Positions 3,410 through 33,273 of a stretch of 58,201 nt of DNA are shown piece by piece. The stretch spans positions 1 through 58,201 of the IMG/VR virus record IMGVR_UViG_3300033571_014210; one strand, 5' to 3'. The stretch is from a virus. A model generated the notes under the pieces. The model was not told the DNA's origin and ran no database searches. It saw only the letters and a program-made list of their open reading frames with translations. How positions within the stretch are numbered: position 1 is the stretch's first letter; every line of letters starts with the position of its first letter. The translations under genes were made by a program, and so were the position numbers.

Positions 3410-3421
3410 TGGAGCGACATT

Positions 3422-4606: not shown

Positions 4607-4618
4607 TTTCCATTTCGA

Positions 4619-4625: not shown

Positions 4626-4630
4626 CTACT

Positions 4631-4710: not shown

Positions 4711-4727
4711 GGTATTTAGGAGAGCAC

Positions 4728-5798: not shown

Positions 5799-5802
5799 TA
5801 AA

Positions 5803-6135: not shown

Positions 6136-6144
6136 GGATAAAAG

Positions 6145-6507: not shown

Positions 6508-6510
6508 TAA

Positions 6511-11955: not shown

Positions 11956-11962
11956 GTTGGAA

Positions 11963-11969
11963 ATAAATA
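11963..11969 (+). promoter_or_regulatory. Candidate late promoter ATAAATA
   Basis: ATAAATA lies 20 bases upstream of the ATG at 11990, with a TTTGGAGC ribosome site between them. It would give the second giant gene its own late transcript. Confidence 0.6.
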
Positions 11970-11989
11970 ACATATATTTGGAGCATTAA

Positions 11990-14900: not shown

Positions 14901-17900
14901 CACCTGGTTCAGCAGATGCCGGAGCTTTTGCACAAGATAGAATTCAACAAGTTTACAATACTATCAACACAGGAACAGAACCAACAACATCTGCTCCTTA
15001 CACTGCTTGGGTAGCAACAGCATTGCAAACAGCTAGAACTGCTATCAACGACACTAAGAGTGAAATTCAAGCAGATGCAGTTCAATATATCAAGAGAACA
15101 TTCCCGACATTAAATTTTGATGAAACATTATGCTCTCGAGATGTTGGCTATATTGTTGATGCTTTAGGATACGATCTGATGTTCGGATCAAACTTCCTAT
15201 CAATTCAAAACGGACTATCGTATAGAAGAGGACTAGCATCTACTCAGGTAGTTCTAACACAACAACTAGCGGCACAACAGGCCATTATTGATTTTATTAG
15301 CTTGAAAGTTTCTGAAATCGCAACCAGTGGTGCTGTGGTATTTGCTGACTTGTTATGGTCTTACATTATCGGAATTGTAACAGCAGAAGCATTACCGGTT
15401 AATACAGGAAGAAATACACCAACAACTAATCTTGATATGATTAATGGTGCTAATATTCTTCGATTAAATGCAGATTTCTTTGCAGCTGAAGCAACAGCTT
15501 ATGCTAACAACACATTCAAAGCAACAGTTTCTTCTGCAGACGGTCCTTCAGACACATTTACTTGCTCATCACAAACTTGGATGGTAGCAGGAGACACTGT
15601 AAGATTCAGTGGCACAACATTTGGCGGTGTTAATACAACTACAACTTACTATATTTTGTCAAGCGGTTTAACTGCAACTACATTTAAAGTAAGTTTAACA
15701 CCAAACGGAACCGCAGTTGACTTATCAGCTGCTTCCGGTACTATGACTGTCACATGGTATTATAACAGCGCAAGATGCGAAAACGATGTTCGTAACTACA
15801 TCAATGCTATTGCAGATGACATGACCTATACTGGAAATTATTATGTGACATTAGCAAGTCGTTACTATCTAAGAGCACTAAGAGGTTCTAAACTAGAAGA
15901 CATGTATTATGTAAGAAACGGCTGCGGTGTTCGTAATCAAACTTTACTAGGACTAGACGGTAGCTCCGACGGTAATACAACCGGAGTCACAGATCCGTTA
16001 ACACCAGCGAACGAATTTGGTACAAGAAGACCAAAAGCAGGTGCTTATGTTTCTCTAGATCCAGGATGGGGACCAAACGATCGCAGAGCCTGGGTAACAA
16101 ACAAATCTTGCTATGTTCAGAACGTTACAACATTCGGTATCGGTGCAACTGGACAAAAGATTGACGGCGTTCTACACGCAGGCGGTAACGATTCTATCGT
16201 TTCCAACGACTTTACACAGGTTATTTCAGACGGTATTGGTGCATGGGTTACTAACTTGGGTCGTGCAGAACTTGTTTCTGTGTTCTCATACTATGCACAC
16301 ATCGGTTACCTAGCAGAAAACGGTGGTAAGATTCGTGCTACCAACGGTAACAACTCATACGGCGACTTTGGTTCTGTATCAGAGGGAGTAGATCCAACAG
16401 AAACACCTATTACTGCAACTATCAATAACAGAGCTCAAGAAGCTAATGTAGGAAATGTAATCACTAACTCGTCAAATGTATTGTTGTTAGAATATGAAAA
16501 TGCAGGTATTGATTATTCTTCAGCAACTTATACAATCACAGGCGGTGGTGCTTTAACCGATATCGTAGGAAATGAAATACGAGATGGCGGCACATTCCAG
16601 GTAAGATTGACAGATCCAGGCGACAGTTCAGGACCTGGCGGTACAGGTTATGTGTCGGCTACCAACGTTGCTCAAGCAGGTAATACTACTCAAATCACTT
16701 TAGCTGCTACTGATACAGCAATTAGCTCGGCATATGTAGGAATGGGTATTTGGATCACCAACGGAACTGGTGCAGGACAATACGGATATATTCATTCTTA
16801 TAACTCAGGTAATAAGATTGCACAAATCCGTAAACCTTCAACTGGGACTTCTGGATGGGATCATGTAATTCCAGGAACAACTATTGCGTCTACTCTAGAT
16901 TTAACAACAGTCTACGAAATTGTTCCTAGACTAACATTTGCAGCACCTCCATATACCAAATCGCTTCGCTCTGGACTGGGATCTCTAGACTGGAAAGATG
17001 TAGCTTACGGTAATGGCTATGGATCATATTCCTTGTTATCAACCACCGGCGGTGCTGGTGCTAATGCACAATTTAATGTAATTAGAAAAGATGGTTCGTA
17101 TACAGTCACTATCGGTGCAGGAGGTATCAACTACGATGTTGGCGATAGCTTAACAATTGCTGGTGCAAATGTTGGAGGTACAACTCCTGCAAACAATATC
17201 ACAATTACAGTGACCGCTGTAGATCCAGACACAGGAGAAATAATTTACATAGAATCCTCAGGTACAGCAATCAGTCAACAATGGGTAGCTGTAGCATCTG
17301 GAACTAATCAGGCTTATACATCACCAGACGGAGTAACATGGACAGCAAGAACAATGCCGGCTACGCTAGATTGGGTTTCTGTAGCCTACGGTGTAGTTAA
17401 CAATATCGGTTATTATGTAGCTGTAGCAAGACAAAGTACAACCACAGCGTATTCTATAAACGGTGTTAACTGGACAGCATCATCGATGGCTGCCGGCGAA
17501 GAATGGGATTGGTGTGGCGTTGCCTACGGTAACGGAGTGTTCGTTACAGTAGCAGAAAGCGATTCGTCAACTACTAGAAGAGCAAGAAGTACAGACGGCG
17601 GCGTTACCTGGGGATTGGGAAATATTTCAACAGGTGCTGTAGCCATAACCTACGGTCAAGGAAGATTTGTGATCGTAGAAGGTAACTTCTCAAGTTCTGC
17701 TGCTTATTCTTCAGACGGTGTTACATGGTCAGTGAGATCATTACCGGCTAACAACGATTCTTCAGAATCCGATTGGAAAGATGTGGCACACGGAAACAAT
17801 AGATTTGTTGCAATTGCAGACAACGATGCACAAGTAGCTATTTCTATAGATAGAGGCTTCAGTTGGTTCTCTGCACAGCTACCAGTTAATGCACCGTGGA

Positions 17901-20335
17901 ACAAAATTGCTTACGGTAACGGAGTCTTCTTAGCATTTGCCGAAGGCAACATTGCAGCTAGTTCCGAAGATGGTATAATTTGGACTCTGAGAGATTTCCA
18001 AGCTACCGATTTAGATATTTTAAGTACTAATAAAGATAGAATAGTTCCTTGGGCGGCATCGAGCTCATTGACTTCTGACACTTGGGGAGCTATGACATTT
18101 GGCGGCGGCAAGTATGTTGCTCTAGCATTTGATGGTGGCGCAACTGCACCGGCAGCAGCTTATTCAGCTAACGGCACTACTTGGAGTAACAGTACACTAC
18201 CAGCAGGTACTAACGATGTACGAAGCATTGCTTTTGGTGACGGTTGGTATGTTGTTCCTTATGCACAAGGTAATGATGTTGCAACATCGCAAGACGGAAT
18301 TACATTTACATTCCAGAATAATGTACTTTCAAGTACTGCTGACTGGTGTGTAATAGCATATGGTGGTGGAAGATTCGTAACTGTGCCTTTCAGCAGCAAC
18401 CTATCTAGATTTGTAACCAGTGCTAGCTTGAATTCTAGTGCATCTACAGTTTGGACAGCAGGCGGTACACTAACTACTACTGCTGAATGGACTGCAATGG
18501 CTTATGGTTCTGGTAGATTCGTAGTAATTTCTGGTTCTACAAGTAACTCTAATGTAACTAACTATTCAACCAACGGTACAACTTGGACTGCGGGAACAAT
18601 GCCTAGTCCAGATCGCTGGAGCGCAATTACATATGGTAATAATAGATTTGTAGCAGTAGCAGGACAACCAGCTACAACTACTACAAAGGCAGCCTACTCT
18701 TTAGATGGAATTACATGGGTAGCTTCGACATTGCCAGGTGCAGCGGCTCGTTGGACCAATGTTACATGGAACGGAACTGTTTTCGTAGCCACTGCTTATA
18801 ACAGCAATCGTTCAGCAGTTTCCGAAAATGGCATATCATGGACTGAAATTACCATGGCCTCTACAGTAAACTGGACCGCCAGTGCCAGCGATACTTCTGT
18901 TTATAAGACCGCTGTGGTTGCAACCGGTTCGGGAACTACTAATTTACTAGAATATGAGGCTAATACCAATCTTCTAACAGTATTCAGCACAAGTCAATTA
19001 GCTGTGGGAGATTATCTAGTAATTCCTGCAGACTCTGCAGGTATTGAGCAGTTTGGCGGATTAGCCACAGAAACTAGATACTATGTTAAATCTATCTATG
19101 ACGCTACAAGATTTACAATTAGCACAACTCCAGGCGGAAGTACTGTGGCACTAACTACCGGTAGCGGATCTATGTATGCTACAGTAAACAAGGTGTGGAG
19201 TGCTATCTCCTACGGTAACGGTGGCGGTAATTCTGGATTCTTAGTTTTAGGTGTGTCCAATCCAGTGGCATTGCAAGTGTTTGTCGGAGCCACTGCTAGG
19301 GGTCGTCCAACTGTTGTAGATAATGAACTAAGCAAAATCTATATACACGAACCAGGATCTAATTATAATCCAAATAGTCCACCTGCAATGACAATTACAG
19401 ATCCTAATAACACAGGAGCTGAAGCTACATTTGATGTTAGAATTGGCGACGGTGTGTTAGGACAGCCAAATTGGATCAGCAGAGGAACTGGATTCATATC
19501 TGCCGCAGCGGCTATCGTCGGTGACGGATATGCAGATAACTATCAAGCTAGTGCGTTCGTTGAATTTGAAAATCTAACCGATATTCCAATTGCAGGCTCG
19601 AACCTACAAATTGCAGGTATTGACGATGTTTACTATAAGATCGTTAACGTCAGAAGCCTAACTATTACCGGTGCAGATTCTTATTCAGCACAGCTACAAT
19701 TAAGTCCTCCATTGGGAGCAGCCGAAGCACCAGATCACAGTAGTGTGGTAACTATACGATCAAGATACAGTCAAGTTCGTTTAACAGGCCACGATTTCCT
19801 AGATATTGGTACAGGCGATCAAACCGAAACCAACTATCCAGGAGTACCAACTCAGGATCCAATACCTGCCAACGAAACTGTTCAAGCAAACGGTGGTCGT
19901 GTGTTCTGGACATCAACTGACCAAGACGGTAACTTTAGAGTTGGCGGATTGTTTAACGTTGAACAGGCAACTGGTACTGCTACATTGAATGCTGAAGCAT
20001 TTAACCTAGCAGGACTTAACGAACTATCACTTGGTTCTGTAGCACTAGGTGGTGGCGGAGCAACAATTAGTGAATTCAGCACTGATCCGTTCTTTACTGC
20101 GGATTCTGATGCTGTAATTCCAACGCAACGAGCTATTAAAGCCTACATCAGTTCACAAATTGGTGGCGGTTCTGGTAGCTTGAATGTTAACACTATTACA
20201 GCTGGACAGATTTACATTGCTGGCAACAGTATTTCCAGTACTATAAACGGTGTGATTAACATAAATACTACAGTTAATTTTGCAGGTGGCGTCGATGGAT
20301 ATCCTGTGGCGCTAAACTTGTTCTTACAAGCATAA
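11990..20335 (+). CDS. Giant tail-fibre/adhesin protein, expanded paralogue (2781 aa)
   Basis: At 2781 residues this is the largest gene here and an expanded paralogue of the 6511-11955 product. It starts with eight W-x-G-x-W...T-x-Y...D-I-I-K-Y-G-G-x-x-Y-x-C-x-x-x-H-T-S repeats (residues 13-440). Residues about 569-1280 hold four copies of a module reading (K/L/R)C-x-R-D-x-G-x-I-V-D-A-x-x-Y-D-x-x-x-G-G-N. The beta-helix core shared with giant 1 lies around residues 1310-1520 (RRPKAGAYVSLDPGWG, GGKIRATNGNNSYGDFG). About eleven Asp-box turns lie at residues 1765-2305. The carboxyl end repeats the GRVFWTSTDQDGNF...PTQRAIKAYISSQI module. Adsorption to a cell-surface polymer is the likely role. 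No signal sequence is present. Confidence 0.72.
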   Translation: MAEFKLGRIKFVWKGAWTATTTYYVDDVVRYGGKTFICTVGHTAASNFYTDLNNVPAKWNQFSDGQDWKGSWAATTLYKINDIVRYGGYTYVCNTGHTSQASLEADQLKWDLFAKGFDWIGDWLPSTTYKVNDIIKYGGNIYLCNSAHTSAASYSLGLESNSSDWDVFNEGFDWKGEWSISTRYKANDIIKYGGYTYVCNTGHTSAGTIGSGLEADQGKWDFFHKGIEYKGTWSGSSVRYKENDLVKYGANIYRCNLAHTSSASFDSVKFELFVEGFQFEGDWSGATTYQVGDVVNYGGYQYVSKTVNTNQTPSTSTANWDLFSRNYRFIGDFSAVTQYLVGDVVRQGGYTYVAVADTLGNQPTNITYWSRLNSGLRWTGTWTNSTSYFLGDIVAFGQFSYICIQPHTSDDDDSTITPTANSPEKDTSFAYWNILTTGLEESVLTTTGDLVYFGSGGVTALPIGEEGQVLTVANGLPTWTTWGKSDEVFYVGPHGVDEIYPVQGATLDKPWKTIRWATEQLESGVYRPNAAYLLKQNRTFIQKEIVEWVDYQIGLGTGIWSGFVQPNKAKCQRDMGLIVDALVYDMSHGGNVKTIEAANSYFNLGVISYIVGEEAQTVAAINYGIGIIEDILNNEAPPQNYQALNGITAPNRIKQVIDFDYDAETGTYEIVSSLAEIITDVITAGSLTNIPATRTPGYTIFVKTGLFEEVLPIILPANTAIVGDELRSTKVSPAGKLIASADKAKSLATLAHLRTITDDVIQNTAVTPTTGNTATQDRTSQKAGDVGSTTALNSVLTNAAEIKDIITNNSPNAYVYPAPTNWGTSLVNTAYASTGYPTGNTSGFDDGRRLLLANKAFLQSEVSAWILAQIAGAVAPFVGFTYGGTRQTKCERDVGLIVDAIVYDMTYGGNLATQIAARSYYSLGAFVEPAEEKAPALAVQNRIKDIIDNICTGNTGGWTKTTTAVQDTSGTPGSADAGAFAQDRIQQVYNTINTGTEPTTSAPYTAWVATALQTARTAINDTKSEIQADAVQYIKRTFPTLNFDETLCSRDVGYIVDALGYDLMFGSNFLSIQNGLSYRRGLASTQVVLTQQLAAQQAIIDFISLKVSEIATSGAVVFADLLWSYIIGIVTAEALPVNTGRNTPTTNLDMINGANILRLNADFFAAEATAYANNTFKATVSSADGPSDTFTCSSQTWMVAGDTVRFSGTTFGGVNTTTTYYILSSGLTATTFKVSLTPNGTAVDLSAASGTMTVTWYYNSARCENDVRNYINAIADDMTYTGNYYVTLASRYYLRALRGSKLEDMYYVRNGCGVRNQTLLGLDGSSDGNTTGVTDPLTPANEFGTRRPKAGAYVSLDPGWGPNDRRAWVTNKSCYVQNVTTFGIGATGQKIDGVLHAGGNDSIVSNDFTQVISDGIGAWVTNLGRAELVSVFSYYAHIGYLAENGGKIRATNGNNSYGDFGSVSEGVDPTETPITATINNRAQEANVGNVITNSSNVLLLEYENAGIDYSSATYTITGGGALTDIVGNEIRDGGTFQVRLTDPGDSSGPGGTGYVSATNVAQAGNTTQITLAATDTAISSAYVGMGIWITNGTGAGQYGYIHSYNSGNKIAQIRKPSTGTSGWDHVIPGTTIASTLDLTTVYEIVPRLTFAAPPYTKSLRSGLGSLDWKDVAYGNGYGSYSLLSTTGGAGANAQFNVIRKDGSYTVTIGAGGINYDVGDSLTIAGANVGGTTPANNITITVTAVDPDTGEIIYIESSGTAISQQWVAVASGTNQAYTSPDGVTWTARTMPATLDWVSVAYGVVNNIGYYVAVARQSTTTAYSINGVNWTASSMAAGEEWDWCGVAYGNGVFVTVAESDSSTTRRARSTDGGVTWGLGNISTGAVAITYGQGRFVIVEGNFSSSAAYSSDGVTWSVRSLPANNDSSESDWKDVAHGNNRFVAIADNDAQVAISIDRGFSWFSAQLPVNAPWNKIAYGNGVFLAFAEGNIAASSEDGIIWTLRDFQATDLDILSTNKDRIVPWAASSSLTSDTWGAMTFGGGKYVALAFDGGATAPAAAYSANGTTWSNSTLPAGTNDVRSIAFGDGWYVVPYAQGNDVATSQDGITFTFQNNVLSSTADWCVIAYGGGRFVTVPFSSNLSRFVTSASLNSSASTVWTAGGTLTTTAEWTAMAYGSGRFVVISGSTSNSNVTNYSTNGTTWTAGTMPSPDRWSAITYGNNRFVAVAGQPATTTTKAAYSLDGITWVASTLPGAAARWTNVTWNGTVFVATAYNSNRSAVSENGISWTEITMASTVNWTASASDTSVYKTAVVATGSGTTNLLEYEANTNLLTVFSTSQLAVGDYLVIPADSAGIEQFGGLATETRYYVKSIYDATRFTISTTPGGSTVALTTGSGSMYATVNKVWSAISYGNGGGNSGFLVLGVSNPVALQVFVGATARGRPTVVDNELSKIYIHEPGSNYNPNSPPAMTITDPNNTGAEATFDVRIGDGVLGQPNWISRGTGFISAAAAIVGDGYADNYQASAFVEFENLTDIPIAGSNLQIAGIDDVYYKIVNVRSLTITGADSYSAQLQLSPPLGAAEAPDHSSVVTIRSRYSQVRLTGHDFLDIGTGDQTETNYPGVPTQDPIPANETVQANGGRVFWTSTDQDGNFRVGGLFNVEQATGTATLNAEAFNLAGLNELSLGSVALGGGGATISEFSTDPFFTADSDAVIPTQRAIKAYISSQIGGGSGSLNVNTITAGQIYIAGNSISSTINGVININTTVNFAGGVDGYPVALNLFLQA
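12026..13306 (+). repeat. Eight tandem CBM5/12-like repeats in giant protein 2
   Basis: There are eight repeats, the same number as in giant 1. Repeats 2 and 4 share the segment KYGGYTYVCNTGHTS or a near match, so some units were homogenised more recently. Repeats 6 and 7 lack the Cys/His ending, as in giant 1, so the order of units is conserved between the paralogues. Confidence 0.7.
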
Positions 20336-23835: not shown

Positions 23836-24744
23836 ATGCCATTTATCAGCAGCATTAGAAGAAATTATCAACAGAAAAAAGAAGGCGAATCAATCCTTGA
23901 TAAAGTTAAGATTACGGGCGGTAATTCTATTATCACTGCCGGCGGATATAGAATACATATGTTTACTTCTACCGGCGATCATAAACTTAATATTGAAGCA
24001 AAAGATCCTAGTAAATCTGCTGAAGTTGCCCAATTAATTTCGGGTGAAAGTTTAGAATATCTAGTTATTGGCGGTGGTGGTGGTAGTATTTCTCAAGGTG
24101 GCGGTGGTGGAGCCGGAGGTTATAGAACTGGCACTGATGTAACCGCAATTCTTGGAGCTATTCCCGTAACTGTGGGCCGAGGTGGCGACGGCAGCGGTTG
24201 GCAAGGTGTAGATTCATCATTTAGCAGCATAACTTCTTCAGGCGGCGGACACGGCGGTCCTTATAATAATCCAGGAACTTCTGGAGGAAGCGGTGGCGGT
24301 GCCGGTAGAGATAATCGCGGTTGGGGAAGAACCTCTGGAACTTCCGGCCAAGGCAACGGCGGTGGTACAAACTTTGCCTGCGGCTGGTCAGCAGGCGGTG
24401 GTGGTGGAGGAGCAGGCGGCGGCGGCAATGACGGAGGAGGTCAAAACTGGGGCAATAGCAACGGTGATGGCGGACGAGGCCCCGGAGGCGCTGGTGTAAA
24501 TAGCTCTATTACCGGTAGTCCGGTAACTCGTGCAGGCGGTGGCGGTGGTGCAAGTCATGCAGGTCCTTGGATTTATCAACCAGGAGGTGACGGCGGTCCA
24601 GGCGGAGGCGGTAGGGGCGAAGATTATCCTTGGGGTGATTACAGCTCAAGTGGTGCAACTAACACCGGCGGTGGTGCTGGCGGTGTAGTAAGTTATAATC
24701 GATCTGGCGGTCCTGGTATTGTTGTTGTAAGATATCTAATCTAA
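23836..24744 (+). CDS. Glycine-rich putative tail-fibre tip adhesin (302 aa)
   Basis: The 302-residue protein has an amino-terminal segment up to about residue 65 and then a GGYRIHMFTSTGDHKL...YLVIGGGGG entry typical of the phage glycine-rich domain. Residues about 76-290 are built from Gly-Gly-x runs (for example SGGGHGGPYNNPGTSGG), and the protein ends GPGIVVVRYLI. In the Salmonella phage S16 adhesin gp38, glycine-rich stretches form polyglycine-II helices carrying receptor-contact loops. A similar fold and a receptor-tip role are inferred here. Variable residues between the Gly triplets are candidate contact loops. The stop overlaps the next start (TAATG). Confidence 0.65.
   Translation: MPFISSIRRNYQQKKEGESILDKVKITGGNSIITAGGYRIHMFTSTGDHKLNIEAKDPSKSAEVAQLISGESLEYLVIGGGGGSISQGGGGGAGGYRTGTDVTAILGAIPVTVGRGGDGSGWQGVDSSFSSITSSGGGHGGPYNNPGTSGGSGGGAGRDNRGWGRTSGTSGQGNGGGTNFACGWSAGGGGGGAGGGGNDGGGQNWGNSNGDGGRGPGGAGVNSSITGSPVTRAGGGGGASHAGPWIYQPGGDGGPGGGGRGEDYPWGDYSSSGATNTGGGAGGVVSYNRSGGPGIVVVRYLI
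24062..24740 (+). repeat. Glycine-codon-rich repetitive tract (GGN repeats)
   Basis: Strings of GGN codons, mainly GGT, GGC and GGA, give a G-rich coding strand unlike the AT-rich surroundings. The tract encodes the polyglycine domain of the 23836-24744 gene. Such a repeat could recombine or slip, changing receptor loops. Confidence 0.65.
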
Positions 24745-25199
24745 TGCCGTTTTTTAAAACCACATATAACATACTAAAAAAAGTAGACGAAGACGAGGCA
24801 TTCGATCCTCGCTGGATGCAGTCTGATAAATTAATTGTCCCTCCTAAAATAGATTGGGATTACGGTAGAGAACTTAAAATTGAAGATGTAGATCTTTGGG
24901 AAGTTCTTTACGAAGGCAGTTACGGAATTGGGCTTTACGCATCCTATATGCCTTATGCAGAATTTTATCTATTAACCACATCATTTAATTACAATAACGC
25001 AGCAAGAATAATTAACAATACCTGTTATTGGGACAAACATTTTGAAACTTATTACGGTCCCGGGGCTCAAGATCAAGTGATTAAAAGATGTAAAGAAGTA
25101 GGGATTCCTTACAATTTACATCAAGTTTGGGTTGATGACGAAGATATGTGGTTATATCAAAAAGATCTCGAAAGCAATAAAAAAATAATTTTACCTTAA
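24744..25199 (+). CDS. MAVYRTT-family hypothetical protein, paralogue 1 (151 aa)
   Basis: The 151-residue protein starts MPFFKTTYNILKK. It includes WDYGRELKIEDVDLWEVLYEG, YGIGLYASYMPYAEFYLL, ETYYGPGAQDQV and a late QVWVDDEDMWLY. The protein at 32884-33273 has the same sequence of motifs (DIRLWELIFH, GGLSVYAAWDPYTEFYII, EEFYGPNAESNL, RVWINPDYSWMYDQ), so the two are paralogues. Similar proteins occur in marine T4-like phages without known function. The start overlaps the previous stop by one base. Its stop codon interlocks with the stop of the opposing halogenase gene. The two paralogues flank the halogenase operon. Confidence 0.62.
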   Translation: MPFFKTTYNILKKVDEDEAFDPRWMQSDKLIVPPKIDWDYGRELKIEDVDLWEVLYEGSYGIGLYASYMPYAEFYLLTTSFNYNNAARIINNTCYWDKHFETYYGPGAQDQVIKRCKEVGIPYNLHQVWVDDEDMWLYQKDLESNKKIILP

Positions 25200-26656
25200 A
25201 GGTAACTTCTTACAAGGCTGATAAAATCTTTATGATTAATTAGTCTTATATTTTTTTCAACTTCTATTTCTTTTCTAATTAAAAATTCTGCTTCTTTTTG
25301 TAACCATTCGGCCGAAGATAAAAATTCTTTTTTAATTGATTCTCGATCAAACAAGTTCAATCCGGCCATAATCAATATAAAATTCTGAGTTCCGAATAAG
25401 TTAAAAGTAGATAGATGACTAAAATCTTCTTCTACAGGTAATTTCGTCCGCCATTTTTCTAACCTTGAACCTAAGCTATCTGGTATAGCCATCTCTCTTA
25501 ACGATTTCCAAAATTCACTATTGGTTTTTCCTGTAAGGTAATGCAGTATTATAAAATCACGAATGTTTTCCATTATTTCGTTAAATGATCTATTATACTC
25601 GTTGATAATTCTTTGATCGTAATTACTGAGTTTTTGCATTAATAAAAAAGTCTGTTGTATAGTAGTTCCTATACTTGACGCTTCTAAAGGCTCAACAAAA
25701 CTGCCACTAAGACCCACAGCACAACAATTGTTAATCCATACTCTATCTAATGCTCCGGGGTCAAAGTTAAAAGTTTTTCCTACTTCAATTTCTCTTCCTA
25801 CTAGAGATTCTATTTCTTGTTTGGCCTGTTCGGCTGTGATAAAATCGCTGTCAAAAATATATCCGTTGCCGTATCTGCCCCATACCGGAATCCTAAATAA
25901 CCAACCCGAATCCATAGCCCTAGCCAGAGTCCAAATATTGTAATTTTCTTCATCGGGAGTTTGAAATGTAATAGCTGATTTCATTTTGAGAAATTCTCCG
26001 TAACTATTCCATTTGGCGCCTAGCTCACTGATTAACAATCTCTTAAAGCCTGTAGCATCTATATAAAAGTCATAAGCGTATAACTGCTTTTGTCCTTTTA
26101 CACTTCTAATATATCCTGTTTTTTCATCTATAAAAACTTTTTCTATTTCGTCTTCAACAATATCAATACCTAAACCGCTGGCTATTTTTTTAAGAAAATC
26201 ATTTAATTTGTGTGTATTGAAATGAAACTGATTTGCAGGAAAATTTTCTGGCTTATTCAAAAAACCAGAATCGATTTTATTTTGCCAGAACCCACTATGT
26301 TGAAATTTATTAGTCGAATCTGCGATTTGTTTAGCATAGACTATACTGTAATCTCCTAATCTTACATTAAACGGAGCTTCGACCATATGCAAATAATCAC
26401 TGTGTCCCCAATTTTGAAACATGATTCCAGCTTTATAAGTAGCATCACACTCTTTGATTAAATCATATTGATTAATACCAACAAAATTCATAAAGTCTCT
26501 AAAGTGTTCTGTACTACCTTCACCTACTCCTATAGTACCTACATTGCTTGAGTAGATAACTGTAATATCAAAATTAAATCTTTTCTTTAAGATTATAGCG
26601 GATATAAGACCAGCAGTGCCACCGCCAACAACTAATAAATTTCTAATATTATTCAT
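25196..26656 (-). CDS. Flavin-dependent (tryptophan) halogenase-like protein 1 (486 aa)
   Basis: This 486-residue member of the flavin-dependent tryptophan-halogenase family would use FADH2, oxygen and halide to form hypohalous acid and then a lysine-bound halogenating species. Visible features are the FAD-binding VVGGGTAG motif (residues 9-16), a catalytic-type lysine K75 in DATYKAGIMFQNW (compare K79 of PrnA and RebH), a second dinucleotide-site signature YIDATGF, and VEPLEASS with E325 where PrnA has E346. The family motif W-x-W-x-I-P appears as W-L-F-R-I-P (252-257), with Phe replacing the second Trp. It is the last gene of the operon, and its start overlaps the previous stop by eight bases. 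The substrate is unknown. A marine cyanophage halogenase (VirX1) has been described as an iodinating enzyme, so a similar role is possible. Confidence 0.82.
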   Translation of the reverse strand: MNNIRNLLVVGGGTAGLISAIILKKRFNFDITVIYSSNVGTIGVGEGSTEHFRDFMNFVGINQYDLIKECDATYKAGIMFQNWGHSDYLHMVEAPFNVRLGDYSIVYAKQIADSTNKFQHSGFWQNKIDSGFLNKPENFPANQFHFNTHKLNDFLKKIASGLGIDIVEDEIEKVFIDEKTGYIRSVKGQKQLYAYDFYIDATGFKRLLISELGAKWNSYGEFLKMKSAITFQTPDEENYNIWTLARAMDSGWLFRIPVWGRYGNGYIFDSDFITAEQAKQEIESLVGREIEVGKTFNFDPGALDRVWINNCCAVGLSGSFVEPLEASSIGTTIQQTFLLMQKLSNYDQRIINEYNRSFNEIMENIRDFIILHYLTGKTNSEFWKSLREMAIPDSLGSRLEKWRTKLPVEEDFSHLSTFNLFGTQNFILIMAGLNLFDRESIKKEFLSSAEWLQKEAEFLIRKEIEVEKNIRLINHKDFISLVRSYL

Positions 26657-28151
26657 AGTTATGATTCTTTATTATTTTAAAAATCTCATCATTGGATATC
26701 CAATTATATCCTTCAAATCCGTTCGCCAGCCATTGCTCTTGATCAGATGCCTTGCGTTTTCTTTCTATTATAGATAATTCTTTCTGTGCAGTATCTTTTG
26801 AATAAAGTTTTAGTCCACAGATAATCCAATTATACAATTCTGCCCCAGCATAGCCAAAGCTATAATCCATGTCTGACTTGTTCAACAGTCTAGTTTTAAC
26901 AATTTCCAATATTTCCTGTATTTTTTCGTTGCCGGCAGCCAATTGATTAGCAGAACGCCAAAACTCTGTATCATTACGACCATTGGCGTAATGTATAAGA
27001 ATAAAGTTTTTAAAATCGTCCAGCATCTTAGAAATCGATCTATTGTAGCTCTTTATACTAGCTTCGTTGATTGTTCTATCTAAGGTTTCTTTTAAATGTG
27101 TAAACAAGAATAGGTTAAGCTGAATAATGGTTCCGTGTATGCTGGTAGCTTCCAACGGCTCTAAGAAACTAGAACTCAGTCCTATGCTCAGTACATTCTT
27201 ATTCCATACAGTTTCTAATCTTCCAGGTTGATATTTGATAAACTTGATAGGTTGTATTTCATGTCCTAACAGAGTTTCAATTTCTCGCTGGGCACCTTCG
27301 TTGTCTGTAAATCTACTGTCAAAGGCATAACCGTTGCCTAGATCATCGCCTTTGGGAATTTGCCACAACCATCCATTGTTCTGTGCCCAAGATGTAGCCA
27401 CTAATCGAAGTTTATAATCTTTGGGATAGGGCAGTATAAACGGCATGGCAGAATCTAGAGTTAGTTCAGGATAGTTAATCCACTTAATACCCATAGCTTT
27501 GGGAAATATTTTAGCAAAGCCGCTGGCATCTATAATAAAATCTGCAGAAATTTTCTGTTCTGTGTCTAAGACTAATTCATTGACGAACCCGTTTTCTGAA
27601 AACTTGATATCTACGACCTTGGCATCAATCTTTTGAACGCTGCCGCCACAAATTCTTTCTAGATAACGGGCAGCTAATTTGGCATCAAAATTATAGGCAT
27701 GACGGTTAATAGTGCCTAACTGACCGTTGTCATTATAAAACGAACTCAGCGCAGCAGATTCTAAACGCCCGTTGATGCTGGCCATTTGCATAGGTATATC
27801 AGCAGCAGTATAGGCAGTGAGTAATAAATTAGTGCCAGTGTCAACTTCGTCTGTGGCAGTGTCGATAGGTGCCAAATATTCTGTGCCCTCGCCTCGCCAG
27901 TTTTTATGTAAGATAGCTAGCTTGGGCGTAGCTTTAGAAAATTTCATAAAGTCTAACTCATTACAACCGTAGTCCCAAACTTCGTTGTTGATAATACCTC
28001 TTAGAGCGCCAGTACTAGATTCGCCTGCACCTATGATACCTATGGCGCTGGATTCTATCAGTGTAATATTATGCAGGCCTTTATGTATTTTTGAAATTTG
28101 CAGAGCAGCTAACCAACCTGCTGTACCGCCTCCGACAATTACTATATTCAA
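26649..28151 (-). CDS. Flavin-dependent (tryptophan) halogenase-like protein 2 (500 aa)
   Basis: This is the second tandem halogenase-like protein, with 500 residues. It shows the FAD motif IVGGGTAGW (residues 5-13), GAGESSTG, lysine K77 in ATPKLAILHKNW, the canonical W-L-W-Q-I-P (261-266), and FLEPLEATS with E334 as the candidate catalytic glutamate. All expected halogenase residues are therefore present. It lies 13 bases after the fused halogenase-oxygenase gene and overlaps the start of halogenase 1. Its sequence differs clearly from both neighbours, so the three are old duplicates that probably differ in substrate. Flavin reductase, the usual partner, is not encoded in the window and may come from the host. 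The substrate cannot be read from sequence. Confidence 0.84.
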   Translation of the reverse strand: MNIVIVGGGTAGWLAALQISKIHKGLHNITLIESSAIGIIGAGESSTGALRGIINNEVWDYGCNELDFMKFSKATPKLAILHKNWRGEGTEYLAPIDTATDEVDTGTNLLLTAYTAADIPMQMASINGRLESAALSSFYNDNGQLGTINRHAYNFDAKLAARYLERICGGSVQKIDAKVVDIKFSENGFVNELVLDTEQKISADFIIDASGFAKIFPKAMGIKWINYPELTLDSAMPFILPYPKDYKLRLVATSWAQNNGWLWQIPKGDDLGNGYAFDSRFTDNEGAQREIETLLGHEIQPIKFIKYQPGRLETVWNKNVLSIGLSSSFLEPLEATSIHGTIIQLNLFLFTHLKETLDRTINEASIKSYNRSISKMLDDFKNFILIHYANGRNDTEFWRSANQLAAGNEKIQEILEIVKTRLLNKSDMDYSFGYAGAELYNWIICGLKLYSKDTAQKELSIIERKRKASDQEQWLANGFEGYNWISNDEIFKIIKNHNYE

Positions 28152-28164
28152 CTATGCCTCTCTT

Positions 28165-30207
28165 TTAACAGCCTTTTTCGCCTATACTGCTACGGCCATC
28201 AAATTTATATTCTGTATAAGGACCGTCGGCGTCTACATAGTGAAAGAAACCCTGTACATGCCATGCATCTTCACTAGGTGCTTTAAGTTCGTTACGACCG
28301 TGTTCCAACTCGCATCCTTTATAGATTACCATATCTCCCGGATTAAGAAATATAGCAGATTTTTCTATGAATAGAGGCCAATCATAATCACCGCCATATT
28401 CAAAATTAAAACAAAGAGTAGCTGAAATTTCACAACTTTGTCTATCGAGGTGCGGTCTCAGTCTGTGTCCGTTACGATAAACTCTAAAATAACTGTATGT
28501 CGGTAATAATTTTTTTCCCGTTCTTTCTTCTATAATAGGCTGTAGTTTAAGTAAAACACTTTCCATAGCGGGATCGGCATGTTTATGATGTGATGTTGGA
28601 ACTAATTCGCCTTCTTGCTCCGGATCAAAATTTTGCATTTCGTCAAACAATGCATACTGAGTTAGCAAGTCTCCAATATCAGTGGGCATTACATCTCTAA
28701 TAACGGTATATCCTTGTGTATTGAATTCTTCAACAGAAGTTTTTTCTTTAGGCAAACTAAGACTTTGCAAAAACAAATTGTGATCTACAGCATCTCTAAT
28801 TAAAGATTCTTTTATTTTTTTCTTATAACCGTCTGGACCGGGCTCTATATTTTCATGACCGAATATATTACTAGGTTTTTCAAATAATTCTAAACCTCGA
28901 CAGACTTGTAAGAAACTAGCCAACGGAAATGTTTTTTCAAAACAATCTTGGTGTCTAAGATCTGCAGACTTAATCTGTTCTTGTATAGCAGCCAGCTTGT
29001 CAGGTAACGGATGATTTTTTCTAAAGTTCCGCCAGAATTCGCTATCTGATCGCTTAGTCATATAATGTAGATAAATGAAATTCATAGCTTCGTCGATGAC
29101 TTCTACAAAATACTTGTTGAACGATTTAATACTGTAATCGTCTAACGAAACTAAAGAATTTAAATATTGTTTGAATATATTCAACTGTATGGTAGTAATC
29201 CATAGCGAAGTACTTTCCAACGGTTCCAAGAAACTAGAACTTAGTCCTACTGCCATGCAATTCTTCACCCAAACATTTTCAAATCTACCAGCTTCGAATG
29301 GAATGATTTTTCTTATTTCTAAATCTTGTCCGTAATATTCTTCCGCTTCTCGCAAGGCTTGCTTTTCATCAATATAATCGCTGTCAAAAATATAGCCAGA
29401 ACCTATACGATGCTGTAAAGGAATTTTCCACATCCAACCGTATTTCATAGCAATAGCTTGAGTATAAGGTCGTGTTTTTTCTTCGTTAGGTACCCAAAAC
29501 GGAATACCTTTTTTCATCGGTAACCATTTACTATAAGAAATCCATTTAGTCTTGTAATGTTCTCCGATAACCTTTCTATGAAATCCTGTGCAATCAAAAA
29601 CGAAATCGCAGGACACAATTTGATCGTTGTCTAATTTAATCGAAGTTATGTTTCCTTGAGAATCATTGTTTATATGTTTAACTCTAGAATCTATAACAGA
29701 AATTCCTCTAGAAATTCCAGCAGTCTCAAGATAGTCAGCCAGTGCTGTTGCATCAAAATGCATGGCCCATGCAGTCTTAAGATCAACTTTGAGTTCCTTA
29801 GCTAGTTTGTGTTGGTAGGCATATTCGTCGAAGGGTAAATTTTTATTGATCAATAATTTAAAATAATACTCATCGCAATCATTAGCATATATTCCCGGAA
29901 TAGATAAACTTACTAAGTTATCAGAAAATGCATGAAAATAATTATTGCCATCTCCGTTCCAATTATCGAATCGAATACCGTTTTTTATAGTACCGTTGGT
30001 TTTTAATAATATATCTTTAATATCAAAATCTAAGTATTCTAAAAACTTAGGAATATGAGGTGTAGTGGCCTCTCCGACTCCTATAATACCCAGATCCTTG
30101 CTTTCTACTAAGGTTACAGAAGCTGTTGGTAACACTTTTTTTAAGAATAAAGCAGTAAACCAACCAGCAGTACCGCCTCCTAAAACTAATAATTTAAGAT
30201 TTGTCAT
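28165..30207 (-). CDS. Fusion: flavin-dependent halogenase domain + 2OG/Fe(II) oxygenase domain (680 aa)
   Basis: The 680-residue protein joins two enzymes. Residues 1-about 445 are a complete halogenase-like domain: LVLGGGTAGW, GVGEATTP, K75 in TIKNGIRFDNW, W-M-W-K-I-P (258-263), and FLEPLESTS with E331. Residues about 492-665 form a 2-oxoglutarate/Fe(II) oxygenase-like domain beginning EEFNTQGYTVIRDVMP. It has the iron motif H586-L-D588 (LRPHLDRQ), a downstream H636 in GCELEHGRNE, and the strand HVQGFFHYVD. A linker of about 45 residues joins them. The gene sits in the middle of the operon and overlaps the upstream gene's stop. A single frame is open through the junction with no sign of a sequencing frameshift. 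Coupled halogenation and hydroxylation of one substrate is an inference. Confidence 0.82.
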   Translation of the reverse strand: MTNLKLLVLGGGTAGWFTALFLKKVLPTASVTLVESKDLGIIGVGEATTPHIPKFLEYLDFDIKDILLKTNGTIKNGIRFDNWNGDGNNYFHAFSDNLVSLSIPGIYANDCDEYYFKLLINKNLPFDEYAYQHKLAKELKVDLKTAWAMHFDATALADYLETAGISRGISVIDSRVKHINNDSQGNITSIKLDNDQIVSCDFVFDCTGFHRKVIGEHYKTKWISYSKWLPMKKGIPFWVPNEEKTRPYTQAIAMKYGWMWKIPLQHRIGSGYIFDSDYIDEKQALREAEEYYGQDLEIRKIIPFEAGRFENVWVKNCMAVGLSSSFLEPLESTSLWITTIQLNIFKQYLNSLVSLDDYSIKSFNKYFVEVIDEAMNFIYLHYMTKRSDSEFWRNFRKNHPLPDKLAAIQEQIKSADLRHQDCFEKTFPLASFLQVCRGLELFEKPSNIFGHENIEPGPDGYKKKIKESLIRDAVDHNLFLQSLSLPKEKTSVEEFNTQGYTVIRDVMPTDIGDLLTQYALFDEMQNFDPEQEGELVPTSHHKHADPAMESVLLKLQPIIEERTGKKLLPTYSYFRVYRNGHRLRPHLDRQSCEISATLCFNFEYGGDYDWPLFIEKSAIFLNPGDMVIYKGCELEHGRNELKAPSEDAWHVQGFFHYVDADGPYTEYKFDGRSSIGEKGC

Positions 30208-30964
30208 GTTTTACAGGGCATTCCATTTTGTCTATAAAATTCTTTTTTAAAGAATAAATTTTTGCATTTTCTTTGGCATCTCTTCTTAAGAAAAGATTAT
30301 CTATATTCATTAACCGCTGAAATTCTTTTTCACTAACTAGATGTCTTTTAATTTCTACTTCCTTATCTGTCATAGGATGAAGAGCTACTAAAGGAGTATT
30401 GGGTTTAATTATAGTTCTTTTTTCTGTATCTTCGTTGATTAAAAAAAAGTTAATATTGGTACTGTGTTGATACTTAAAATTCATTACTGCCGGAAGTATT
30501 ACAAAGTTTTTTAAATCCTTGCGAAGACTCCAAGTAGGTTGTGTCCAAGTCCAATTTAGGCTTTCTTTGGTTCTAATACACCACGGAGATTCTAATTTCA
30601 TATTAGTACCATCATCTAATGCATATTTTTCAAATTGACTAGCGTGGTGACTTTGTTTATCTACAGTATGCTTGTTACTCGATTCGTAAGAATAATATCT
30701 TCTTTCTGGGTCTCCTTTAGCATGAATTGTTAGATCCATCTCAAACCAAGAAGGAATAATTATAGATTTTTTATAGAATTCTATGAGACCTACACAATTT
30801 TTAATGGTTAAATTATTACCGCTCTGACAGGTGCTCGGAGTTTCTTTCCACCATTCGGGATAGAACTTTATCCCGATGTCTATAGGTGTATAATCATAAA
30901 CATAGTCAAGAACACAAAAACAATCTACTACAATTTTACTTGGTTTTTTAAAAATATTAATCAT
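30194..30964 (-). CDS. Unknown operon protein, FYPEWWKETP motif (256 aa)
   Basis: The function of this 256-residue protein is not recognised. It begins MINIFKKPSKIVVDCFCVLDYVYDYTPID and carries the block IGIKFYPEWWKETPSTCQSG, then KNCVGLIEFYKKSIIIPSWFEMDLTIHA, and later ESPWCIRTKESLNWTWTQPTW. Proteins with this P-E-W-W-K and I-P-x-W-x-(D/E) layout occur in other marine T4-like phages near oxygenase genes, so a functional link to the oxygenase chemistry is plausible. No metal or nucleotide motif, signal peptide or membrane span is visible. Its start overlaps the upstream oxygenase stop by eight bases and its end overlaps the fusion gene by 14 bases. It is an obligate-looking operon member. Confidence 0.6.
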   Translation of the reverse strand: MINIFKKPSKIVVDCFCVLDYVYDYTPIDIGIKFYPEWWKETPSTCQSGNNLTIKNCVGLIEFYKKSIIIPSWFEMDLTIHAKGDPERRYYSYESSNKHTVDKQSHHASQFEKYALDDGTNMKLESPWCIRTKESLNWTWTQPTWSLRKDLKNFVILPAVMNFKYQHSTNINFFLINEDTEKRTIIKPNTPLVALHPMTDKEVEIKRHLVSEKEFQRLMNIDNLFLRRDAKENAKIYSLKKNFIDKMECPVKHDKS

Positions 30965-31508
30965 AAGACGATAAAAGATCCAAGTTAAAGCTCATAATAG
31001 TTTTTCTTTGTGTGCTATGGTAACGCGGACATCTATGATAGAGAAATGAAGGAAACATAATCATATCTCCTTCTTCTATATCAAATTCAACTAGTTTTGT
31101 TCTGTCCCAATTCTGTATCTCTGTTTTAAAATTTTTATCAGGCAATTCTATGTAATATACATTAGTCCAATGGCAACTTGAATGAACATGCCAATCGTGT
31201 ATATCCCCGTTAATATATTGCTGAAACCAAAATTTAGTAAAAGCAATACCATTAAATTTAAAAGGTTTTAAACTTTCAGTCATTGCTTCTATAATTTTTG
31301 GTTTTATAAAGTCTAGATACGGTCTTGGATATTCTTCAGGAATATTCCAATCACTTTTTGTTATATGATCATCGCTGCTGGAGTTGCTTTTGTCGATTGA
31401 CACACGGGGCATTTTATCGATTAAATCTAATAAATGATCTTTAAAATTTTTATGGTCAGGCATTTTAGTGACTACAAAAGGCATGTCATCAAAAAATGTT
31501 CTACTCAT
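30957..31508 (-). CDS. Putative 2OG/Fe(II) oxygenase, HxH-type (183 aa)
   Basis: The 183-residue protein resembles the 'putative 2OG-Fe(II) oxygenase' group common in marine phages. Motifs are HDWHVHSSCHWTNVYYIELP (H107-x-H109 where most superfamily members have H-x-D), EEGDMIMFPSFLYHRCP (H158) and R168 ten residues later, followed by IMSFNLDL. These fit two iron ligands, the distal histidine and the arginine that holds the 2-oxoglutarate carboxylate. The H-x-H replacement makes the iron site uncertain, although it seems usual for this group. Start and stop overlap both neighbours by a few bases. The substrate is unknown; a protein or small-molecule hydroxylation partner for the halogenases is possible. 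Confidence 0.68.
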   Translation of the reverse strand: MSRTFFDDMPFVVTKMPDHKNFKDHLLDLIDKMPRVSIDKSNSSSDDHITKSDWNIPEEYPRPYLDFIKPKIIEAMTESLKPFKFNGIAFTKFWFQQYINGDIHDWHVHSSCHWTNVYYIELPDKNFKTEIQNWDRTKLVEFDIEEGDMIMFPSFLYHRCPRYHSTQRKTIMSFNLDLLSSYD

Positions 31509-32137
31509 TGTAATTTTCTATCCTTGATCCAAGTAACTAAGCAATATTTTGTACCTTTGGTAATTGGATGGGCTATATGTCTATAAGCAAAATTACTAGG
31601 AAATAATATTAACATTCCAGGCTCTGGTTTAATTTTAATCTTAAAACTAGGAAATTCAATTTCACCACCTTCATAATCAGAATTCAAGTAAACTATAGCA
31701 CTAATAACTCGCCCAGTATGACTATCACCGTCGTAGTGTTCTTTGTATTCTTCTCCGTTAGAGTATTTCAGCATAGAATAAGATTCGTGCCATAGGGTTT
31801 CTCTAATGCCGTATCTAGTAGCATAGGGGATAGTTGCGGCTAGTAGCATCATGTTCATTTGATTATGAATATTTTGCAAAGCTGGATTATTGCTTACTTC
31901 TGCTAGATAAGAGATTCCCAGCATTTTATTAGTTCTGGCCGCTTGCCAAGGACCGTGGCCCAAAGTAGTTGCTCTTTCCCAGTATGCTCCAGATTCGGGA
32001 TCAGCACACTGTTCTTCGGCCATGGCTATAGTTTCTTCTGGATTAGGCCAAGCATTTTCAAAAATTTCTATACAACCGCCCACTGTTGTATTTGGAGTTA
32101 ATTCGCCGGGAAAAAACCCGTTAACTTTAATAGTCAT
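31505..32137 (-). CDS. 2OG/Fe(II) oxygenase, prolyl-4-hydroxylase type (210 aa)
   Basis: The 210-residue protein carries a complete catalytic core: H134-Y-D136 (YKEHYDGDS), the strand SAIVYLNSDYEGGEIEF, the PEPGMLILFPS turn, H187 in YRHIAHP and K197 (TKGTKYCLVTWI), ten residues after the histidine. These are the two-His-one-Asp iron ligands and the basic residue for 2-oxoglutarate, arranged as in prolyl 4-hydroxylase-like enzymes. The family oxidises C-H bonds with oxygen and 2-oxoglutarate, releasing succinate and CO2. It is the first gene of the minus-strand operon, has a ribosome site (AAGGAT), and follows a late promoter 28 bases upstream. Its stop overlaps the next start (ATGA). The substrate is unknown. 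Confidence 0.82.
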   Translation of the reverse strand: MTIKVNGFFPGELTPNTTVGGCIEIFENAWPNPEETIAMAEEQCADPESGAYWERATTLGHGPWQAARTNKMLGISYLAEVSNNPALQNIHNQMNMMLLAATIPYATRYGIRETLWHESYSMLKYSNGEEYKEHYDGDSHTGRVISAIVYLNSDYEGGEIEFPSFKIKIKPEPGMLILFPSNFAYRHIAHPITKGTKYCLVTWIKDRKLQ

Positions 32138-32165
32138 AAAAGGATCCTTACTTAATTGCTCTCAA

Positions 32166-32172
32166 TATTTAT
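32166..32172 (-). promoter_or_regulatory. Candidate late promoter of the halogenase/oxygenase operon (ATAAATA, minus strand)
   Basis: Read on the minus strand, the site is ATAAATA, 28 bases upstream of the ATG at 32137, with a Shine-Dalgarno-like AAGGAT between. It is the only late-type promoter seen ahead of the six-gene operon. It is back-to-back with the plus-strand site at 32211. Confidence 0.62.
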
Positions 32173-32210: not shown

Positions 32211-32217
32211 ATAAATA
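32211..32217 (+). promoter_or_regulatory. Candidate late promoter ATAAATA
   Basis: ATAAATA is followed after 27 bases by the ATG at 32245, with a TTGAGGA ribosome site between. It diverges from the halogenase-operon promoter 45 bases away. Confidence 0.62.
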
Positions 32218-32244: not shown

Positions 32245-32883
32245 ATGAACCATGTTAAAGCGACCTATGACTTTGCATCAAAACAGTGGGATATAAACGC
32301 CGATCAGGCGCACGGCGAATTTGGCGAAATTCATATGATTTTTGCCAAATTACACGAAACCGTTAACTTACCGCCAAATTTTAAGTTTGGTTTTTCTATT
32401 TTTAAAGACAATGAGTTGTTGTTATCTAAACAGTATCCCGACGAGTTTTCAAAATTTGAAATGGCTGATTCTTATCCTTTAGCTATTGAAAGAATTTGGT
32501 TTGTTTCAGAGCACTCCTATAAATTATATGTGTGGACTAGAATAGATCAAGAAGTGCAAGAATATGAAAAAACATTCACAGTAGGTCGTCCTGCTCAACC
32601 TTATCCTTCGTGGAATTGGGTGGAGGGATTTTGGACTCCTCCTGTACCTAAACCTATTAACGGTCCTTACAGCTGGAACGAAGAACAACAAATTTGGGAG
32701 GCTATGCTACCCGCTGATGACCCTCACTATAATTCCTACTATGCAAACATGCCGCAATATGGCGACGAGCAATTCAGCCCGGAATTAGGTAGAATGGTAA
32801 AATCTCTCAATAACGAACATCATCGCCCATCTCCACTCGGAAGTCCCGGAGTTGAAATTAAACTAGATCCTACCAAAGTATAA
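32245..32883 (+). CDS. Virion-type protein with WNWVEGFWTPPVPKP motif (212 aa)
   Basis: The 212-residue protein belongs to a group found in marine T4-like phages. Its mark is the proline- and tryptophan-rich block PYPSWNWVEGFWTPPVPKPINGPYSWNEEQQIWE at about residues 122-157 (quoted here as PYPSWNWVEGFW, TPPVPKPINGPYSW, NEEQQIWE). The amino-terminal half is beta-rich and resembles a small structural domain. I chose ATG 32245. A TTG five codons upstream is in frame, but it overlaps the TTGAGGA ribosome site. It opens the second plus-strand fibre block and is directly followed by the 32884 gene. The function is unknown; a structural role is likely. Confidence 0.6.
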   Translation: MNHVKATYDFASKQWDINADQAHGEFGEIHMIFAKLHETVNLPPNFKFGFSIFKDNELLLSKQYPDEFSKFEMADSYPLAIERIWFVSEHSYKLYVWTRIDQEVQEYEKTFTVGRPAQPYPSWNWVEGFWTPPVPKPINGPYSWNEEQQIWEAMLPADDPHYNSYYANMPQYGDEQFSPELGRMVKSLNNEHHRPSPLGSPGVEIKLDPTKV

Positions 32884-33273
32884 TTGGCTGTATATAGAAC
32901 CACCGAATCTTTATTAGAAAAATGCTGGGAAGATCTCAATGATTTTCCCAGTACTAGCCTTTATCCTGCTAGAGAATACTGTAATACCTGGGAAAAATTA
33001 AAATATTCAGATATAAGACTTTGGGAATTGATTTTTCATATTCCGGGCGGTCTGTCTGTTTATGCAGCATGGGATCCCTATACAGAGTTTTATATAATTG
33101 TACACGATCTTTTTAAGAAAACTGCCGAAGGTATAGAAGAATTTTATGGACCGAACGCAGAATCGAATTTGACTGATCGATTAAAAAAGTACGGTATATC
33201 CCTGCCAAAGAATCGCGTATGGATCAACCCAGATTATTCCTGGATGTACGATCAGTTAACTCCATCTAACTAA
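32884..33273 (+). CDS. MAVYRTT-family hypothetical protein, paralogue 2, TTG start (129 aa)
   Basis: This 129-residue protein is a paralogue of the 24744-25199 product, with matching blocks DIRLWELIFHIPGGLSVYAAWDPYTEF, EEFYGPNAESNL and NRVWINPDYSWMYDQ (each under 30 residues and interrupted by changes). The start appears to be TTG at 32884, immediately after the upstream TAA. The resulting MAVYRTTESLLEKCWEDLN corresponds to MPFFKTTYNILKK in the paralogue and to the usual start of this family. There is no nearby ATG and no clear ribosome site, so translation probably depends on coupling to the preceding gene. Its end overlaps the opposing 33256-33495 gene by 18 bases. The function is unknown. 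Confidence 0.58.
   Translation: MAVYRTTESLLEKCWEDLNDFPSTSLYPAREYCNTWEKLKYSDIRLWELIFHIPGGLSVYAAWDPYTEFYIIVHDLFKKTAEGIEEFYGPNAESNLTDRLKKYGISLPKNRVWINPDYSWMYDQLTPSN

Follow-up and report, generated by a model that had tools for sequence, protein, structure and literature searches.

Why would a phage keep halogenase and oxygenase genes among its fibre genes? We addressed this question in the entire 58,201-base IMG/VR virus record IMGVR_UViG_3300033571_014210 (classed linear; hereafter the window), where an operon of six minus-strand open reading frames at 25196-32137 encodes three predicted flavin-dependent halogenases, three 2-oxoglutarate (2OG)-Fe(II) oxygenase domains, and a protein with a dUTPase fold. 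The window carries the end of a Gp23-type capsid gene, neck, sheath, tube, sheath-stabiliser, and terminase genes, and giant fibre genes, and is therefore a fragment of a T4-like phage, a marine virus of bacteria. With moderate confidence, we read the operon as a modular cassette, expressed late and tied to the fibre locus, whose enzymes hydroxylate and halogenate adhesin or fibre proteins of the phage itself.

The operon and its proteins

The operon and its promoter-like sites comprise the following features, with protein lengths in amino acids (aa); L087 is a related IMG/VR locus described below.

32211-32217, plus strand: second ATAAATA, back to back with the next site, upstream of the divergent gene at 32245 (same pair in L087)
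32166-32172, minus strand: ATAAATA late-promoter-like site, 29 bases upstream of OxA (motif count; like-placed site in L087)
31505-32137, minus strand: OxA, operon gene 1, prolyl-4-hydroxylase-type 2OG-Fe(II) oxygenase, 210 aa (PF13640, 2e-15)
30957-31508, minus strand: OxB, 2OG-Fe(II) oxygenase of the HxH type (2OG-FeII_Oxy_5), 183 aa (PF13759, 5e-10; phrog_81, 7e-27)
30194-30964, minus strand: dUTPase-fold (beta-clip) protein, formerly the "unknown" of the operon, 256 aa (AlphaFold2 [AF2] model, fold search, profile comparison)
28165-30207, minus strand: HalA-OxC, 680 aa, with the predicted halogenase at about residues 1-480 (PF04820, 2e-108)
28165-28737, minus strand: OxC domain, about residues 491-680 of HalA-OxC (model, fold search)
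26649-28151, minus strand: HalB, predicted flavin-dependent halogenase with a TTG start, 500 aa (PF04820, 6e-85; tree)
25196-26656, minus strand: HalC, predicted flavin-dependent halogenase, 486 aa (PF04820, 1.5e-91; tree, motif)

Neighbouring genes overlap by 4, 8, 14, and 8 bases, apart from one pair separated by 13 bases, just as an earlier note on this DNA had described for six coupled genes. The ATAAATA motif, which we take to resemble the core of T4 late promoters, is depleted across the window (10 copies versus 24 expected) yet concentrated at gene starts, with 6 of the 10 copies lying within 60 bases upstream of a same-strand start (2% of positions; p ~2e-8); letter permutations of the motif occur in 11-46 copies, and none is concentrated in this way. 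The late-type start proposed in that note therefore stands, and the operon as one transcription unit behind a late-type promoter is supported; its expression would accordingly fall late in infection. A sigma-70 promoter scan of the operon region returned sites no commoner than chance, and comparison of the window with PADLOC system models yielded a generic 2OG accessory profile alone and no match to a specific defence system.

HalA, HalB, and HalC each match PF04820 (Trp_halogenase) over its full length, at 286-363 bits against a cut-off of 21, and are 32-34% identical to one another, in agreement with the three non-identical halogenases first noticed. All three read GGGTAG at the GxGxxG flavin-binding motif, and each keeps the catalytic lysine (GTIK/ATPK/ATYK) and active-site glutamate (EPLES/EPLEA) in alignment with VirX1, to our knowledge the first characterised viral halogenase, an iodinase for which we know of no listed native substrate or pathway. 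HalA (WMWKIP) and HalB (WLWQIP) fit the WxWxIP motif, from which HalC (WLFRIP) departs. From these residues, halogenating activity is predicted for all three. The enzymes have their family (PF04820), catalytic lysine and glutamate, and flavin-binding motif in common with tryptophan halogenases of the PrnA/RebH/PyrH type but are distant from them in sequence, and their context is without biosynthetic pathway genes.

In a tree of 75 halogenase sequences, HalA grouped with L004, with HTVC008M further out; HalB grouped with L004 and L033 and adjoined the S-PM2 enzyme and the second-locus enzyme of S-RIM44; and HalC grouped with the halogenases of P-SSM2, S-H38, and S-SCSM2R. The three thus belong, as judged from their sequences, to separate old phage clades, and these positions indicate that they were collected rather than duplicated in place. 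Tandem duplication, considered as their source, was ruled out because each falls in a different phage clade. L004 carries relatives of both HalA (51% identical) and HalB (39%). As a query, HalB found no locus and HalC three distant loci only; close copies are therefore rare.

Pfam profiles identify OxA and OxB as 2OG-Fe(II) oxygenases (PF13640 and PF13759), and their metal-ligand motifs can be read in the translations (HYD...H in OxA, where a K follows, and HVH...H in OxB). OxC, the C-terminal 190 residues of the fusion protein, matched nothing in Pfam, and its PHROG hit carries the label "ferrochelatase". Its model (pLDDT 93) had as top matches in the Protein Data Bank (PDB) a Pseudomonas prolyl-4-hydroxylase (P4H), PHD2, and a viral collagen prolyl hydroxylase, and invariant HxDR and HxR motifs in a 12-sequence alignment provide the triad H96, D98, and H146. 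On its modelled structure, OxC is a prolyl-hydroxylase-like 2OG oxygenase with predicted catalysis, which completes the three oxygenase domains counted by the earlier note, and the annotation of the "ferrochelatase" family of these phages is corrected to 2OG oxygenase. The matched P4H was crystallised with EF-Tu, and the modelled likeness of OxC to this enzyme, to PHD2, and to the collagen hydroxylase is a hint of a protein substrate. A further hint in this direction comes from VirX1, whose active site is large and open and for which no pathway is known (PMC8407142). Prolyl-4-hydroxylase/PHD-type oxygenases share the predicted fold and metal-ligand motif with OxC and PF13640 with OxA, whereas the OxA and OxC of the window belong to phage-specific families. 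Other phages encode OxC as a gene of its own, and the two genes fused in HalA-OxC are found close together elsewhere. Both PHROGs and deposited records give genes of several oxygenase blocks (L089, L090, PHROG 2954; L091, L100) the name "ferrochelatase" or "DNA endonuclease V".

The remaining protein now has a fold, where its family had been without known function. Its AF2 model is of moderate confidence (pLDDT 70), and the 50 best PDB fold matches are all dUTPases or dCTP deaminase-dUTPases. A dUTPase also ranks first, weakly (E 0.058), in a PDB sequence profile search, and profile-profile comparison with eight dUTPases gave 88-92% probability; of the controls, the 40 column-shuffled profiles did not exceed 0.6%, and OxC reached 0.1%. 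Its relatives were collected in alignments of 14-16 sequences. The catalytic positions, namely, the Arg-Ser of dUTPase motif 2 and the Asp of motif 3, are not conserved in the window protein, which reads AVMNFKY opposite the dUTPase stretch GLIDSDY and TQPTW opposite the PRSG region. Because these positions are lost, we do not file the protein as a dUTPase; it is probably a binding or scaffold component. DUF6065 (PF19541) is matched by only 3 of 14 relatives (best E 0.0025) and not by the window protein, which we do not assign to that family but regard as distantly DUF6065-like; no paper on DUF6065 was found in the literature searched. Two close-relative queries recovered no bacterial relative in 84,980 species genomes. 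The S-CREM1 homologue is deposited as a "triphosphate nucleotidohydrolase". Separately, the dUTPase in the Campylobacter phage record MG065691.1 is 100% identical to that of E. coli K-12 and is probably contamination.

Recurrence of the enzyme set beside fibre and adhesin genes

The neighbours of the operon are fibre genes or are homologous in sequence and position to fibre-locus genes of relatives, so that the placement in a fibre/adhesin block claimed by the earlier note holds. The second gene beyond the operon's 3' end is the following.

23836-24744, plus strand: glycine-rich adhesin-type protein, candidate substrate (PF21722 Gly_rich_2, 2e-7, above cut-off)

The families of the operon recur side by side in viral contigs, where the genes of unannotated contigs were called mechanically. 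A close comparison is offered by the IMG/VR islands L087/L088 and L084/L086, which resemble the window in their flanking fibre genes, their strand, and the order OxA, dUTPase-fold gene, OxC, and which differ from it in having no halogenase, a free OxC gene, and an extra oxygenase after OxC. L087 and L086 share fibre genes and small flanking paralogues with the window, L087 also the N-terminal part of the glycine-rich gene, and in both the cluster lies on the strand opposite to the fibre and flanking genes, as in the window. Their OxA proteins are 68% (L087) and 65% (L086) identical to that of the window. The L087 cluster sits at exactly the site of the window operon, has the same back-to-back ATAAATA pair, and consists of OxA, a second gene, the dUTPase-fold gene, OxC, and one more oxygenase. 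The relative order of OxA, the dUTPase-fold gene, and OxC is thus retained where halogenases are absent. L004 and L044 adjoin the same fibre gene (64% identical C-terminus) with other enzyme sets, namely, relatives of HalA and HalB, one dUTPase-fold gene, and several oxygenases in L004 and three halogenases with three dUTPase-fold genes in L044. From the halogenase-free and variable sets at this site, we conclude that oxygenases together with the dUTPase-fold protein form the core, to which halogenases are added exchangeably; the three halogenases are thus not the core.

A similar block lies 3' of the fibre genes in Syn10, with a halogenase, a second halogenase, a dUTPase-fold gene, and approximately seven 2OG oxygenases plus OxC. 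Of the two halogenases, the second is VirX1 (it matches PDB 6QGM over its full length, E 0), encoded between the other halogenase and the dUTPase-fold gene. As in the window, the genes of the VirX1 block of Syn10/Syn9 overlap and directly follow glycine-rich fibre-tip genes, and they encode halogenases, a dUTPase-fold protein, the OxC family, and several 2OG oxygenases. It differs in having two halogenases rather than three, in lacking the HalA-OxC fusion, in lying on the fibre-gene strand where the window operon lies opposite, and in that its halogenases belong to clades other than those of HalA, HalB, and HalC.

A halogenase-blind search, with the Syn10 dUTPase-fold protein as sole query, returned 15 phage records, and in 14 of these (Syn10, two of Syn9, S-CREM1, five of S-RIM44, Sf-FR1, two of P-TIM40, Sf-FP1, and Sf-CH3) a halogenase lies directly upstream of the dUTPase-fold gene, with several records in the isolate counts representing the same or nearly the same phage, so that statistics on these related phages are not independent. 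The upstream halogenases of these 14 records were judged from gene positions; the fifteenth record, S-RIM4, had a weak dUTPase-fold match, and its neighbourhood was left out. In 14 whole isolate genomes, 22 oxygenases lie within 5 kb of halogenases versus 8.9 expected (p 0.001). The order halogenase, halogenase, dUTPase-fold gene, oxygenases is kept in three genera (Syn10, S-RIM44, and P-TIM40), whose dUTPase-fold proteins are only 38-40% identical. Taking as a cassette a halogenase, a dUTPase-fold gene, 2OG oxygenases, and OxC beside fibre or Gly_rich_2 genes, we identified one in the window, and Syn10, S-RIM44, P-TIM40, and Sf-CH3 carry a VirX1-type cassette at the fibre locus.

The association extends to the glycine-rich adhesins. 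Two S-RIM44 isolates are nearly identical on both sides of the locus (98.7% for fibre 1 upstream, 99.6% for gp13/gp14 downstream); between these flanks, one isolate (Np_42_0711) carries three glycine-rich adhesin-type genes, two halogenases, a dUTPase-fold gene, oxygenases, and OxC, and the other (W2_10_0709) an unrelated 294-aa protein in the adhesin position and one oxygenase, with no halogenase. With flanks this similar and the block different, the enzyme set has been exchanged together with the adhesins in S-RIM44; the large fibre genes also differ between the two isolates (39-58% identity). Counted over all loci, 18 of 31 islands and 1 of 40 single halogenases have a glycine-rich gene within 10 kb (Fisher p 1e-7, an optimistic value because the loci are related). 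Among 10 adhesin-position proteins, the 8 glycine-rich island proteins, that of the window included, match Gly_rich_2 above the cut-off, and the S-SRM01 adhesin and the 294-aa S-RIM44 replacement protein do not. In the 14 whole isolate genomes, 8 of 11 Gly_rich_2 loci are within 10 kb of a halogenase versus 1.7 expected (0 of 20,000 rotations), and the S-RIM44 isolate without the cassette has zero Gly_rich_2 loci. A dedicated enzyme set tied to fibre genes, as originally suggested, is thus found in related and in distant phages alike, and the S-RIM44 exchange makes virion proteins, rather than early metabolism, the best-supported target. Host-surface molecules, named in the earlier note as the other possible target, received no support.

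Halogenases were also observed in other arrangements. In L102 (S-SSM7; 3133-15323), the stretch from minor coat protein genes to gp13 includes a halogenase, 2OG oxygenases, and genes for carbamoyltransferase, heptose kinase, phosphoheptose isomerase, and sugar epimerase, as if for virion glycan decoration. In L103 (Actinomycetia phage DSL-LC01; 5103-11645), a lone halogenase directly precedes a glycosyltransferase gene and comes one gene after a pair annotated as collagen-like.

Candidate substrates and alternative explanations

In the mechanism we propose, the operon would be one allele of an exchangeable oxidative tailoring cassette of T4-like marine phages, expressed late from its ATAAATA promoter. 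The 2OG-Fe(II) oxygenases would hydroxylate, and the reduced-flavin-dependent halogenases would halogenate, side chains of newly made fibre proteins, the likeliest substrate being the adjoining glycine-rich tip adhesins; the dUTPase-fold protein would act as a noncatalytic partner that holds or positions the substrate, and FADH2, 2-oxoglutarate, iron, and halide would come from the host. As enzyme sets swap with adhesin genes, the chemistry of the adhesin (receptor fit, cross-linking) could vary besides its sequence. We know of no enzymes of this kind beside the gp38 genes of enteric T4-like phages. Tips of the gp38 type are receptor-binding proteins in those phages and, as glycine-rich proteins encoded beside long fibres (e.g., in PP01), are comparable to the window candidate with its PF21722 glycine-rich domain (PMC12892980). 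Only tentatively do we extend the proposal to an unrecognised virion-protein modification system, in which exchangeable halogenase/hydroxylase sets and a substrate-presenting dUTPase-fold protein would chemically diversify tip recognition and which would be the native role of VirX1.

Several observations weigh against a cassette acting on adhesins. Lone halogenases occur in photosynthesis or replication neighbourhoods in S-PM2, S-MbCM6, S-B64, and others; the halogenase family is therefore not confined to the cassette, and the neighbourhood comparison proposed in the earlier note thus gave a divided answer, with the block recurring beside fibres and single halogenases at unrelated loci. No flavin reductase was recognised among the scanned window proteins. 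For 13 of the 31 islands, some of them on short contigs, no glycine-rich gene was found nearby, and the comparison of these islands with the 40 single halogenases is not phylogenetically independent, the singles being dominated by one clade. The Trp/Tyr content of the glycine-rich proteins, in the few cases available, did not separate halogenase-bearing from halogenase-free islands. Finally, the fibre locus is variable, and co-location and co-exchange could reflect hitchhiking.

The founding halogenases PrnA and RebH act on free tryptophan, and the enzymes could by analogy tailor a small molecule, modifying a host or phage metabolite (free tryptophan, indole, or a peptide), for instance, into an antimicrobial that protects the infected cell. 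Antibiotic protection is the published guess for cyanophage prnA (PMC2984593, PMC9964418), and VirX1 takes many small aromatics in vitro (PMC8407142). We nevertheless consider this explanation unlikely, as no core scaffold-forming (biosynthetic or peptide-synthetase) or export gene was found among the scanned proteins of the window, itself a genome fragment; location and exchange follow the fibre and adhesin genes; a late-type promoter would leave little time; and the differing enzyme sets of close relatives at one site suit a variable protein target better.

Slightly less probable still is the hitchhiking explanation, by which the recombination-prone fibre region gathers unrelated auxiliary metabolic genes, each acting on a different substrate, and the operon is a chance assembly. 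The same genomes do carry single halogenases and many 2OG oxygenases elsewhere, and the block exchanged in S-RIM44 takes in whole fibre genes. A chance assembly is harder to reconcile with a dUTPase-fold protein that in isolates is almost never without an adjoining halogenase, with a gene order kept in Syn10, S-RIM44, and P-TIM40 despite the low identity of that protein, with the order of OxA, dUTPase-fold gene, and OxC where halogenases are missing, and with the fusion of HalA to OxC. Modification of bases or nucleotides by the oxygenases and halogenases, to which the dUTPase fold and the DNA repair proposed for phage 2OG oxygenases (PMC3037559, PMC9146016) might point, is very improbable given the nonconserved dUTPase catalytic positions, the closeness of OxC to protein prolyl hydroxylases, the fibre rather than replication genes as neighbours, and the late-type promoter.

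Prior views have taken the parts of the cassette separately, with prnA assigned to antibiotic protection (PMC2984593, PMC9964418), cyanophage 2OG oxygenases to DNA repair or 2-oxoglutarate control (PMC3037559, PMC9146016), and halogenation viewed as metabolite tuning (PMC10452541). The system was at first called undescribed, and indeed no published description of the cassette or of a virion target was found, in a search that left most subscription literature outside and is weak evidence of novelty; its components, by contrast, were already known, and it is not unique, with long-published cyanophage blocks, one encoding VirX1, having a comparable make-up. Likewise, no literature on phage tail-fibre hydroxylation and no published infection time course for cassette genes were found in the literature searched. 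VirX1 is now placed in a recurring gene unit with defined partners and a concrete candidate substrate, and its role becomes directly testable in cultured phages. If modification of adhesins is the correct reading, halogenated or hydroxylated adhesins would be a new phage route to varying host recognition, would help explain why cyanophages carry many 2OG oxygenases, and would make these phages a source of protein-acting halogenases.

Flanking and other genes of the window

Three small fibre-locus genes flank the operon.

24744-25199, plus strand: 151-aa fibre-locus protein, paralogue (28% identical) of the 32884-33273 protein
32245-32883, plus strand: 212-aa protein on the other operon flank, with homologues in the fibre loci of L087, Syn10, and S-H38
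32884-33273, plus strand: 129-aa paralogue (28% identity) of the 24744-25199 protein

The 151- and 129-aa paralogues bracket the operon of the window; their homologues bracket the cluster in L087/L088 and in L084/L086 form a tandem to one side of it. A pattern scan gave no close viral-contig relatives of the 212-aa protein, its homologues in fibre loci being found by profile. The giant fibre genes at 6511-11955 and 11990-20335 have five to six repeats of PF02839 (carbohydrate-binding module family 5/12), which suggest, from sequence, glycan-binding fibres.

Elsewhere in the window, a short gene at 41166-41540 (minus strand), whose product had no Pfam match, is related to the gene of the L087 3550-4008 protein, which has a Nudix-like box. 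A deoxynucleotide monophosphate kinase-like gene (45627-46313; PF21448) lies between neck and sheath genes, and a TnsA-like endonuclease N-terminal domain (PF08722, 1e-22) is encoded at 52439-52879, near the terminase gene.

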